Positions 192 through 63,745 of a stretch of DNA of 64,000 nt are shown in pieces. Origin of the DNA: Ianthella basta. Taxonomy: Eukaryota; Porifera; Demospongiae; Verongiida; Ianthellidae. Position 1 is the first letter of the stretch; each line of letters opens with the position of its first letter. The stretch is from positions 7,014,234 through 7,078,233 of the forward strand of contig OZ025873.1 in NCBI GenBank assembly GCA_964019415.1. The letters run 5' to 3'. The translations under genes and the position numbers were made by a program. The notes under the pieces were generated by a model. The model searched no databases. It saw nothing but the letters and a program-made list of their open reading frames with translations, and was not told the DNA's origin.

Positions 192-3100
192 TCACTTCTT
201 TTGCGCGCACACTCCATAGGCAGGGTTGGTCTCCATGGCAATGTTGTCGCTGATTGCAGGAGTTTCTTTTGGGCCTACAGTGTCGTAAGTCTTCTCCCTA
301 TAGGGGAAAGGTTAGTAATACTTCTTGATACTCTACGCACTTATGTACGTCATGCATTAATGCTATAAAAATCAGTATAATTTATTATTTCTTATATTAA
401 TTATTCACAAATGTAGCTCAATTTCAAAAGACCTACATGTAACAATGCAACATTAATTTCTTGAATTGTTTCTAAACACTTCATAATTCTGTTTGTGGTG
501 ATAAATGGAGTCTCACTTTTCCTCTTTAGTGTCCACATTTAAACTGTTTCCACCAGAATGCTTCAACTTCCAACAACCATACATGATTCCCACAACAAGA
601 ATAGCAGCAACAACACCAGCCACCACTCCACCCAGGAAAGAGCCTGCACCTGTTGAGACAATAGCTTGCTCAGTAGCAGTCACTGCTGTACTTTCACCTG
701 GGGACAAAATAGTAAAAATTGTCTATGCATTGATGGAGAATACTGATGCTTACTAAACATAAGGTCAATGTGCTGTTTTCTGTGCTCACCTGCACACACA
801 TGCATTCTGCACACCTCCACCTGCCTTCTCCTGCTGTAAGGACTTTGCTGTCCATTTGGAGTGATGGCAGATATCCACACATAATAGGGCTTGCATGAGT
901 TGTCTGTGTCTGGTAGAGTGATTGTAACTGATGTGGAGTTTAGTTCAGGCACCACTAGAGCTCCCTGGGGTGGAGTGGAGGGGTCACTCTCATGACTGTC
1001 TATTGAGTACCACACTGTGAAGGTGGTGCCACTGCCAGCTTGTGTGCCCCAAGTGAGTGTTATTGGCAAGGTTGAATTGAGGCTTGTCACAACTCCATCC
1101 TCAGCACTCACTGCAGTGACAGTGTGACAATATTCGGTTACAATAATTGTGCATGTGCCTAGTACATGCAGATTTGTTGCGTGTTGCGAGTATTCAGTAC
1201 ACAATGTCATGGTAAAATTATGCAATGTCACCTTATATGACCCATGCATAGCTACATGCATGCAAACACCTCAAATAGCCACAAATCTTGTGAATATTGC
1301 CACAGTACAAAGTTTAAGCCAGAGCTTATAGAGCCCTGTAATACAAAATGCAGATGCTAGAGCAGTGGTATGTAGTTGGATCTGTCCCCAACTTCATCCC
1401 TCAGTTTGGTGTATCTCCACAGCACTAGCCATCATAAAAGAGTAGGTGCACCTCTCTTGAATTAGTTCTACTGTGTATGCTTTAACTTACAACTGCACTG
1501 AGGCACACTCCCACTCCACTGCCTATTGGCCAGGCAGGTTCTACTGTTTGATCCCTGTAGTGTGTAGCCTACATCACAGGTGTAGGTCACTACAGAGTTG
1601 TAGGTTGTACTGGAGAGAGTACGTTGACCACTTGTGGGAGTACCAGGATCACCACAGCTGACTGTTGCAGTGGAGAGGTTGTTTAGATCAAGAAGATTAT
1701 GTTTAGCAGCAGTTAATTAATCAGTTTCAAAAGTTAAAATTTAATGCAAATCATAAATGTCTCGATGTAAATGTATTATGCACTGAGGTGACAAGGAACA
1801 ATCATACACATGCAGTACATAATGACAATTACACCCTTCATCAGTTGTACATAATCATACAGACAGTTCATTCTGTGCAGCTGAGCTGTATCTTCCATTC
1901 TCTGAACCACACACTCTGAATACAATAGTGTAATACCTTGTTATAAGTTCTTCAGCCAGAGAATGAGAATTAATTGTTTTCAGAATTGGATGAATGTTAC
2001 ATGAACAAGTATTTCGAGTTAAAAAAAACTCGTAGGGCTGCCACCCCAACTCGAAATACTTGCTCTCTTCGGTCGCTGCTCTGTCACTCACAATAAACAT
2101 GACATTGTGTCATACACCTTTGTGACCTCAGCACATACACACACACACACACACACACACACACACACACACACACACACACACACACACACACACACAC
2201 GCACGCACGCACGCACGCACGCACGCACGCATGCACGCATGCACGCACACACCAAGCACAAGCAGAGAGAAATCTCAGCAGCACAGACACATGACTGCTT
2301 ACAGCTCATGCATTTACAATGAGTATTTACAGAAACATAATGTACGAAGGAACCCACAGTCGCGAGAGTAGCTATTGTTCTGTGATGGCAAAAGTTACGT
2401 ACGTGGTTTGCTACAGCGCAGTACGCGTGGGCCAGATTCTGAAGAGCAATTTGAAGGGCAACTGTGCGCGCTAAGCTTTTCAACGCTACAGACGGTTGAA
2501 AATGTTAGCGTGAACATATCCCGGAGCTCACCAGTTTCTACGTTACTCGTGTCATGTGCTTCAGGCGGCGAAGTGAAGTCCTCCGAGGCGGGCGCGGCCA
2601 TTATCGAAGAAGGCGCGTGGTGAAGTCGATGACCTGTTGGGCGCTGTCTCGAAGCTGTCTCTTTGCCCGTCGACCAGAAGTGTTGTAGGAGTCTGTTCCA
2701 CGATTGTCGGCGGAAGAGGACGTTCAAAGTGCCCTAACACGACGTTTAGAAGCCGGTTTTGAAGGTCCCTTGGCCTCGCGCACGGTCCACTTCCGGCCGA
2801 ATAAATAGCGTACAATATAAATCCCCTATCCTCAATACTTTGGTCACTACATAATAATATAAATGCTTGCACAGTTATACTGCCGTAGTTTACGTATTAT
2901 ATAAACCGACACATATACCACCGAAAGTGGGACACGAAGCCATACAACAAAACGTCAAAACGAAAACAATATAGAGGCTGCCTGTGGCAGCCCCTAAAAG
3001 ACATAGGCTATATATCTCATGCAAGATCATCGGACATGTGCAATCGTTTTAAATGACTGCATTGTTCATGCTATATACCTGGAACTGAAGCAGTCCAGAA

Positions 3101-62800: not shown

Positions 62801-63745
62801 ACTTTCTGCAATAATGGGAAATGAACTATAAATTTACTATATCAAATACTATGCAAATGATTCCAATCTCTAGCCCCCTGTATACTGAGATATTGCTCTG
62901 AAGAATGTGATCATGACAATCTGCCTCCCTTACCTGTAGATCACAGCCACAAGTGCTATCGCTAGCACACATCCCAGGAGGAGCAGTACAACAACAGCTA
63001 CACTGACTATGGCAGCTGTAGGAAGTGGTCCTATTGAAAATTCAGAGAAGGTAAATAAGGCAATTAAGGCAATTGTATAGCAAAGCATTAATTGTCTGTA
63101 GATGTGCAATTATATATACACTGCATTAGTTCTGTATACCTTCAAAGTGCAGATCTCCACTGCTTGCTGGAATTGTACCATAGTTAATCAGAGATGCACT
63201 ACTTGTGGTTGCTGTATCACCATTTCCTGAGGATGCACTACTTGTGGGTGCTGTATCACCATTTCCTGAGGATGCACTACTTGTGGGTGCTGTATCACCA
63301 TTTCCCGGGGATGCACTACTTGTGGTTGCTGTATCACCATTTCCTGAGGATGCACTACTTGTGGGTGCTGTATCACCATTTCCCGAGGATGCACTACTTG
63401 TGGGTGCTGTATCACCATTTCCCGGGGATGCAGTGCTTGTTGGGTCCCCTAGCACAACACATCACAAGAGCATGAATGAATTAATGGAATGCCATTGCCA
63501 ATGTAATGACAGAGAGATCGAATACTAATGATCACAGCAGAAATCTTGCAAATAATTCACCATGAACATACATTGGCAATGAGGCACGCTCCCACTCCAC
63601 TGTCCATTGGACTGGCAGGTTCTACTGTTTGATCCCTGTAGTGTGTAGCCTACATCACAGCTGTAGGTCACTACAAAGCTGTAGGTTGTACTGGAGAGAG
63701 TGCGTTGACCATTTGTGAGATTACCAGGATCACCACAGTCAACAA
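56830..63745 (-). CDS. Receptor-type protein tyrosine phosphatase, gene B (5' end outside window)
   Basis: 21 visible exons, 5' to 3': sushi 63572-63745; linker 63140-63448; TM 62934-63030; juxtamembrane 62654-62805, 62258-62488; D1 62053-62156, 61770-61851, 61610-61683, 61461-61494, 61246-61343, 60658-60786, 60428-60579, 60159-60294, 59875-60024; D2 59692-59791, 59458-59534, 59205-59339, 58148-58282, 57878-58026, 57408-57543, 56830-56910. All phases agree. D1 has [17 protein letters not shown] and VVHC+SAGVGRTG, so it is predicted active. D2 has RGWTTAK in place of WPD and CDDGMSRSG as its signature. It is a close tandem duplicate of gene A; signal peptide, Ig and any earlier sushi exons should lie right of 64000. 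Confidence 0.9.
58349..59110 (+). mobile_element. LINE fragment inserted in gene B intron
   Basis: 762 bp absent from gene A, where the intron reads CATATACAATGATATTAGC continuously (11645-11665). The duplicated target is TACA (58345-58348, 59111-59114). The open frame 58386-59042 encodes the end of a reverse transcriptase and its C-terminal region ([41 protein letters not shown]). The 3' tail is TGATTGATT repeats. It is 5'-truncated, lies antisense to the gene and is younger than the A/B duplication. Confidence 0.88.
63140..63448 (-). CDS. Gene B Ser/Thr stalk exon, minisatellite-coded
   Basis: Seven near-identical 39-bp units encode [17 protein letters not shown] repeats between sushi and membrane, a probable O-glycosylated stalk. 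The exon is 309 bp, phase 1-1, with donor GAAG|GTATAC and acceptor TGCTAG. Gene A has about half as many units. The repeat number is likely to vary between alleles (inference from minisatellite structure). Confidence 0.85.

Follow-up and report, generated by a model that had tools for sequence, protein, structure and literature searches.

Vertebrate paired receptors (KIR, SIRP, PIR, LILR) are encoded in clusters, and combine very similar binding Ig domains with differing tails, and fast-evolving ectodomains with conserved signalling parts. Here we describe a receptor locus of the demosponge Ianthella basta that shares part of this plan. It lies in a 64,000-nucleotide stretch, hereafter the window (assembly GCA_964019415.1, contig OZ025873.1, positions 7,014,234 to 7,078,233 of the forward strand; contig positions are prefixed C6 or given as seven-digit numbers, and others count from the first letter of the window). 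An earlier note, made from the sequence alone, had proposed that five same-strand receptor genes here end either in a tandem phosphatase (A and B) or in a short tyrosine-bearing tail (C, F and G). All five units lie on the minus strand, with A, C, F and G intact in silico and the 5' end of B outside the window. We interpret the locus, with a probability of about 0.5, as one of paired receptors in which the inhibitory arm has a phosphatase of its own.

As in the KIR, SIRP, PIR and LILR families, the sponge genes are clustered, carry near-same Ig domains on differing tails and have a fast ectodomain; the rest of the ectodomain differs. Unlike in those families, the arm taken to be inhibitory has a phosphatase fused to it in place of an immunoreceptor tyrosine-based inhibition motif (ITIM) that recruits SHP, and the other arm has a YDxV/NPAY tail built in, where those families use a basic transmembrane residue and a DAP12-type adaptor. 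The nearest described system that we found in the literature, as far as the available portions of the source reach, is the Botryllus fuhc locus with its fester co-receptors (FcoR). These are type I proteins with variable Ig and sushi domains at one recognition locus, have tyrosine-motif tails that include a bare YxxI/L/V core, and are paired by gene neighborhood (PMC12065747). The same portions describe tails with ITIM, hemITAM (a half immunoreceptor tyrosine-based activation motif, ITAM) or core motifs and no fused phosphatase, and partnership with fester proteins rather than with phosphatase-tailed relatives (PMC12065747). The gene C, F and G models have one Ig, three to six sushi domains, an FN3-like domain and a core YxxV, and an FcoR-type pair of C2 Ig domains was not seen (the whole-protein Pfam scan covered C only). 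By their predicted domains they would thus fall outside the FcoR family, for which the source, in the part available, gives a V-type Ig, sushi domains, two C2 Ig domains and an ITIM, hemITAM or core tail. The pairing of phosphatase and short tail was not described in the titles and abstracts listed by searches of the open-access PMC literature aimed at such a system; subscription papers lie mostly outside it and absence is not proven. The earlier note knew of no described system with this pairing, to which FcoR offer a partial parallel in architecture.

The case for pairing rests on the 5' part of the genes. Genes A, C and F have one and the same signal peptide (17/17 residues); at the protein level, the Ig exon of A shares 82% identity with that of C and likewise with that of F; and the 600-bp upstream flanks of the three genes are 84-88% identical pairwise. 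The earlier note had called these parts nearly the same. Genes A and F match at 83% DNA identity over 2 kb spanning the upstream flank, signal peptide and Ig exon, and the match stops 157 bp past the A Ig exon (exon end 19607); between C and F, successive matching blocks continue through the sushi region. We found the same pattern in a wider 262-kb stretch of C6, of which 7,500 bases are N and which holds 10 phosphatase (P) and 15 short-tail (T) genes, interleaved on a single strand. In the 600 bp past the Ig exon, identity between P and T genes is at most 0.62, against up to 0.98 among P and up to 0.92 among T genes; in the 600 bp before the start codon, P-T identity reaches 0.87.

P and T genes are intermingled on a tree of the Ig exons (28 of 32, the four with under 90% coverage being excluded). 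The phosphatase label has to change 8 times on this tree, compared with a mean of 8.6 when labels are shuffled (206 of 500 shuffles were as low), the starred branches force at least 4, and 7 are needed when four unlabelled rows are excluded. Judged by these sequences, tail type is not predicted by Ig type, and the idea of one exon kit with two cytoplasmic fates and swapped tails is upheld. Among the 23 Ig exons that are free of stops and assigned to P or T, adjacent P and T genes have a mean Ig identity of 0.70, against 0.61 for non-adjacent ones (62 of 5000 shuffles as high). Two P genes stand out: the Ig of P_6920252 is 89% identical to that of its neighbor T_6925920 and 65% to the best P, and that of P_6901992 is 87% identical to its neighbor T_6906085 and 70% to the best P. 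The 5' recognition cassette has therefore moved between two 3' bodies more than once, though not freely.

The array is larger than the window, and the pairing pattern extends well beyond it. Genome-wide (209 Mb), the tail exon has 30 matches, 29 of them on the minus strand of C6 within 0.75 Mb (6.36-7.11 Mb), a concentration that excludes a chance origin of the cluster. The exon encoding the catalytic site of the first phosphatase domain (D1) has at least 114 matches in the genome, at least 47 of them on the minus strand of C6 in 1.14 Mb (5.95-7.09 Mb); these counts are lower bounds, 150 of 214 candidates having been scored. None of the 47 has an internal stop and three are partial. The Ig exon has 72 matches in the genome. 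Along the 262-kb stretch, gene type switches at 17 of 24 neighbors (shuffled mean 12.0, p 0.023; 25 genes, order entered by hand from the exon search results, orphans excluded), but some segments of the array arose from others by recent copying (flank identity up to 0.98), so that neither this nor the adjacency comparison is a test of independent events. The stretch also contains three orphan transmembrane-tail units and some FN3/transmembrane fragments, and in one T gene region (C6:6969189-6970776) three Ig matches follow one another, two being incomplete. Outside the array, phosphatase exons with 41-78% identity to the D1 query form further groups on C12 (4.4-6.1 Mb), C19 and C11. The tail query had no matches at these three groups, and its one off-cluster copy, on C1, reads YDTD.

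We compared evolutionary rates between modules by the ratio of nonsynonymous to synonymous substitution (dN/dS), restricting the comparison to copies covered over at least 85% of the module and free of stops and Ns, and to pairs with dS of 0.03-1.5. The median for the Ig exon was 0.98 (23 copies, 252 pairs, 48% above 1), or 0.84 for 27 exons of all kinds and 0.85 for 11 close ones, values which, being pairwise between paralogues and biased by recombination, do not by themselves prove positive selection. The tail exon stood at 0.31 (27 copies, 336 pairs), the signal peptide at 0.34, the FN3-like exon at 0.45, the transmembrane exon at 0.54, sushi at 0.63 and the juxtamembrane region at 0.76, with D1 exons at 0.12-0.38 and those of the second phosphatase domain (D2) at 0.05-0.45. 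Over the 23 Ig copies, entropy peaks in the DE loop (1.56) and is least in strands B, F and G (0.44-0.50), strand limits having been assigned by eye. The N-terminal exon belongs to the immunoglobulin superfamily: at E<=0.01 it matched Pfam Ig_3 in 24, ig in 18 and V-set in 8 of 26 exons; these Pfam scans, like those against PDB, took in 26 of the 28 tree exons, one being split across tiles and one with a stop being left out. An AlphaFold model of the Ig from four window sequences (predicted local distance difference test score 41) was too poor to use.

These rates and the Ig variability bear on two alternatives. Tail swapping could be a by-product of unequal crossing-over among ordinary adhesion receptors, with P and T functions separate and unlinked. 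Recombination has evidently been heavy, as very similar sushi exons, orphan 3' units and the triple Ig indicate; block duplication accounts for part of the order signal, and most P and T ectodomains differ past the Ig. We nevertheless think such a by-product unlikely, as it sits poorly with tails held under constraint while the Ig changes at 0.84-0.98, and with P and T genes standing side by side throughout the 262-kb stretch. Alternatively, the same anatomy could serve the recognition of microbes only, as a multigene set of immune receptors without a part in self/non-self discrimination. Such a reading overlaps with our preferred explanation and differs from it in use. Pathogen-driven diversification could leave a peak of amino-acid change between paralogues in the DE loop, as seen here, but two kinds of output fit either use, and we hold a purely antimicrobial set to be possible, at appreciably lower odds than paired receptors as such.

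By its signal peptide, transmembrane segment and PF00102 domains with WPD and HCX5R motifs, gene A is a receptor protein tyrosine phosphatase (PTP). It is laid out as signal peptide, Ig, three sushi domains, Ser/Thr-rich stalk, transmembrane segment, juxtamembrane region, D1 and D2, and its match to Pfam Y_phosphatase (E 4.1e-129) covers two stretches, equal to two PTP domains. The WPD and Q-loop and related motifs have known roles in PTP catalysis. Nine of the 10 P genes are complete through D2 inside the 262-kb stretch, and in all nine D1 keeps WPD and HCX5R intact, whereas D2 has W[T/N]T in place of WPD and a Y or C near the Q-loop place, with SDGMSRSG kept. Each phosphatase receptor likely has one active domain, D1, so that the "active-looking tandem phosphatase" of the earlier note holds for its first half and gives way, in the second, to an inactive-looking domain. 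Its picture of Ig/sushi phosphatases fits A and B but few of their relatives: sushi exons were detected in 3 of the 10 P genes, namely A, B and the gene whose Ig lies at 7097041, against 14 of 15 T genes, and several of the P genes without a sushi match seem, from the listing of frames before the transmembrane segment, to pass from the Ig to the Ser/Thr-rich stalk. This correction leaves the odds of pairing unchanged because the argument for pairing rests on the Ig and the 5' part. The stalk is encoded by a 39-bp minisatellite, with 3.5 copies in A (15864-16002) and 6.5 in B (63193-63445), and its length may vary between genes or alleles.

Among described phosphatases, the LAR-type and PTP-alpha/epsilon enzymes are likewise tandem PTPs with an active-looking D1 and an inactive-looking D2, and LAR-type enzymes also have Ig ectodomains. 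The sponge genes differ in joining an Ig to a Ser/Thr-rich stalk, with sushi domains in some, and in the presence of at least 47 D1 exons in one array. One Amphimedon sequence is discussed in the accessible part of a study of R3 receptor phosphatases (PMC5336234). In a homologue search whose query was a gene A model one residue off the final one, the cytoplasmic part was 33-38% identical to named animal phosphatases among the matches listed. The closest phosphatases among the best 120 of 7678 matches were two proteins of short Joint Genome Institute (JGI) metagenome contigs (53% and 48%), followed by one of Geodia barretti (36%), and the Pfam sushi accession appeared in none of those 120.

This layout raises the main rival on mechanism, a CD45-like role in which P and T would cooperate rather than oppose each other. 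CD45 strips the inhibitory phosphate from a Src-type kinase; were the P receptors to act like CD45 or PTP-alpha, the kinase could then phosphorylate the T tails. An active-looking D1 with an inactive-looking D2 (9/9) is indeed the usual arrangement of receptor phosphatases, and the named matches of the region include PTP-alpha/epsilon-like and LAR-type enzymes. Cooperation alone, however, leaves unexplained the recurrence of similar Ig exons and upstream flanks on genes of either tail type, and we put its probability at about one in five.

The window T genes run from signal peptide and Ig through three to six sushi domains to an FN3-like domain, a transmembrane segment and a tail of ~55 residues (KLKHS...EEK-ENTYDTVG...VAMETNPAYGVC), of which the last ~34 come from a separate exon. 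Two tyrosine motifs, YDxV and NPAYGV, are conserved in it. As the earlier note had it from three genes, both are kept across the family: 26 of 30 tail exons are open and have both YDxV and NPAY, and 27 of 30 have YDxV. The remaining tails read YDTD (C1), IDAV (7083439), CDAV with a stop (7035731) and YDTV with a stop replacing the NPAY tyrosine (6459294). An ITAM, with its familiar consensus, is ruled out in the T tail: a spacing of 23 residues separates the two tyrosines in 26 of 27 tails (25 residues in the other), and the second lies in YGVC, YGGI, YRAC or YVVC rather than YxxL/I. The 27 tails compared here and in the dN/dS analysis were gathered by a pattern that itself requires YD and NPAY and left out 7083439, 7035731 and 6459294. 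Against the equally familiar ITIM consensus, the position two residues ahead of the YDxV tyrosine holds N in 21, R in 3 and K, D and S in one each, and the S copy (7111469) is the only one of the 27 to fit. The P receptors, the proposed inhibitory members, have no ITIM, their tails being tandem PTPs. None of the 25 script-matched T-type transmembrane segments has a K, R or D inside, and thus none has a basic residue for an ITAM adaptor; a single Glu occurs in the otherwise uncharged helix in 4 of the 25 (7056102, L030, L032, L037), and the unmatched L029 reads VEG. The transmembrane exon of T genes ends in a phase-2 AA/GTGAG donor (for example at 517, 23939 and 44581), where intron retention leads to an in-frame TGA and would give a receptor without the tyrosine tail.

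NPxY is a signal for binding by phosphotyrosine-binding (PTB) domains or for endocytosis, and a YDXV motif is reportedly named by Blasutig et al. in 2008. In nephrin, Y5, Y7 and Y10 (YDEV, YDEV, YQDV) bind Nck, according to the part of the source available (PMC3237483), and a route from Nck through N-WASP to Arp2/3 and actin is described in the accessible part of another (PMC4238058). The T tail resembles that of nephrin in its short cytoplasmic YDxV and differs in having one such site, against three Nck sites, plus NPAY. A protein with the order SH3-SH3-SH3-SH2 is encoded in this genome at C22:5.24 Mb (L042); over residues 31-91 of the SH2 query it shares 53% identity with human NCK1. The YDxV of the T tail fits the class of sites bound by the Nck SH2 domain, and binding to this Nck-type adaptor is predicted. 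Other SH2 exons, in long open frames, score similarly to the NCK1 query (L041 and L043, at C12:806286 and 823845). The FN3-transmembrane-tail region alone had no homologue at E<=1 among 2176 candidates, a search of word-based sensitivity by which absence is not proven; a search with the whole gene C protein was dominated by sushi proteins.

Taken together, we propose paired receptors in which one cassette, made up of the upstream flank, signal peptide and fast-evolving Ig, is joined to either a phosphatase body or a tyrosine-tail body. Ligand would cluster T receptors, whose YDxV would be phosphorylated by Src-type kinases and then bound by the Nck SH2 domain, leading to actin remodelling through N-WASP and Arp2/3, while the NPAY may serve PTB-domain binding or endocytosis. 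P receptors seeing the same or a competing ligand would dephosphorylate the T tails or their kinases, so that the balance of P and T would set the response. P would then be an inhibitory receptor with a built-in phosphatase, in place of SHP recruitment through an ITIM. Everything in this scheme past the motifs and the anatomy we infer. Of the possible uses, recognition of variable ligands on cell surfaces, whether microbial or allogeneic, is the likeliest.

Several observations weigh against opposed pairs of this kind. Upstream flanks are on the whole closer among P genes than between P and T (medians 0.81 and 0.65), which also speaks against a wholly free exchange, and 8 of the 10 P genes have their closest Ig in another P gene or in a tie that includes one. 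Past the Ig the two ectodomains diverge, P genes showing no FN3-like domain and, in 7 of 10, no sushi seen. Block duplication deprives the order and adjacency tests of independence. An Ig dN/dS near 1 also fits relaxed constraint, and recombination biases the value; the four G-type Ig exons give 0.50, and variation is not confined to loops, the C strand being variable as well (entropy 1.07). Finally, receptor phosphatases can activate Src kinases, as CD45 and PTP-alpha do, so the sign of the signal is not fixed.

The genes of the window, all on the minus strand, are as follows. Gene C (6758-192; 8 exons, 526 amino acids, no internal stop, GT-AG introns) has its signal peptide at 6758-6710, Ig at 6624-6220, sushi exons at 4157-3984, 3669-3496 and 1661-1491 (three Pfam sushi stretches), FN3-like exon at 1110-790, transmembrane exon at 697-517 and tail, with YDTV and NPAYGV, at 297-192. 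Gene A (20140-10181; 25 exons, 1146 amino acids, no internal stop, 24 of 24 introns GT-AG) comprises the signal peptide (20140-20092), Ig (20005-19607), sushi exons (18258-18085, 17027-16854, 16310-16137), stalk (16005-15853), transmembrane exon (15701-15605), juxtamembrane region (15476-14917), D1 (14814-12780), D2 (12645-10440) and a C-terminal exon (10261-10181). Gene F (40347-23615; 11 exons, 697 amino acids, no internal stop, GT-AG introns) has its signal peptide at 40347-40299, Ig at 40215-39817, six sushi exons within 38149-24912, FN3-like exon at 24528-24208, transmembrane exon at 24119-23939 and tail at 23720-23615. Gene G (50548-44254; 10 exons, no internal stop, 632 amino acids excluding an EGF exon whose frame is disrupted near 48.7k) has its signal peptide at 50548-50506, a divergent Ig at 50416-50036, five sushi exons within 48528-45538, FN3-like exon at 45158-44838, transmembrane exon at 44761-44581 and tail at 44359-44254. 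The 3' part of gene B (56830..63745) holds a sushi exon (63745-63572), the stalk repeat, a transmembrane exon (~63.04k), D1 (62.2-60.15k), D2 (60.0-57.4k) and a C-terminal exon ending at ~56.83k. Its D1 and D2 modules are 75-100% identical to those of A with motifs intact; its signal peptide and Ig exon lie just outside the window, at C6:7081763 and 7081626, and B is known as modules rather than as a full open reading frame. Pseudogene status can be rejected for C, F and G, at the level of sequence, since their models are intact and their tails constrained.

Pieces of further 3' ends, partly decayed, lie between these genes. Upstream of C is an orphan FN3-like exon (7435..7746, minus), 72% identical to that of C, with no transmembrane or tail match alongside; it is probably the relict of a duplicated 3' end. 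An FN3/transmembrane/tail unit upstream of A (21328..21924, minus; by tblastn of transmembrane segment and tail, and translation) has an in-frame stop in the tail and a Cys replacing the YDxV tyrosine, and one upstream of F (41765..42560, minus; FN3 partial) keeps YDAV and NPAYGV. Such orphans sit 3' of other genes, and intron phase 1 is common to the sushi, stalk and FN3-like exons, so P and T could in part be alternative 3' ends of a single transcription unit, with splicing from a phase-1 exon either to the stalk or to a downstream FN3, transmembrane and tail set. With the orphans partly decayed, one of them by a stop, and with A, C, F and G each having its own signal-peptide exon, we regard this as highly improbable.

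The large intron of gene F (37494-28142, minus) bears a non-LTR (long terminal repeat) retroelement with an open endonuclease-reverse transcriptase frame of 1184 amino acids (30363-33914, minus) and an upstream frame with a PHD finger (33878-35032, minus). Weak GIY-YIG and reverse transcriptase matches, under Pfam cut-offs, at 28929-29729 (minus) and 52750-53624 (plus) are reminiscent of Penelope-like elements. A type I hammerhead ribozyme lies in another part of gene F, in an intron at 25779-25823 (plus; 42.5 bits, above the Rfam gathering score); none was found in the 12 of 20 tiles of the wider stretch that were scanned (L009-L020).

The observation behind the earlier note is thus confirmed and enlarged and its interpretation partly supported, with self/non-self use a reading only. 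That this is a megabase paired-receptor self/non-self locus in an early-branching animal, working without ITIM or ITAM through a phosphatase form and a Nck/PTB form, seems doubtful; were it so, the array would be a receptor-level candidate for sponge allorecognition. Paired receptors with opposite tails are a recurring way to tune recognition. In this array the brake appears to be built into the receptor itself, in the form of an active-looking phosphatase, and an actin-adaptor motif takes the place of an ITAM in the other arm. Neighboring P-T pairs such as C6:6925920/6920252 and 6906085/6901992 offer concrete material for a direct test, and if both forms see the same ligand, the sponge array would represent an independent origin of the paired-receptor principle.

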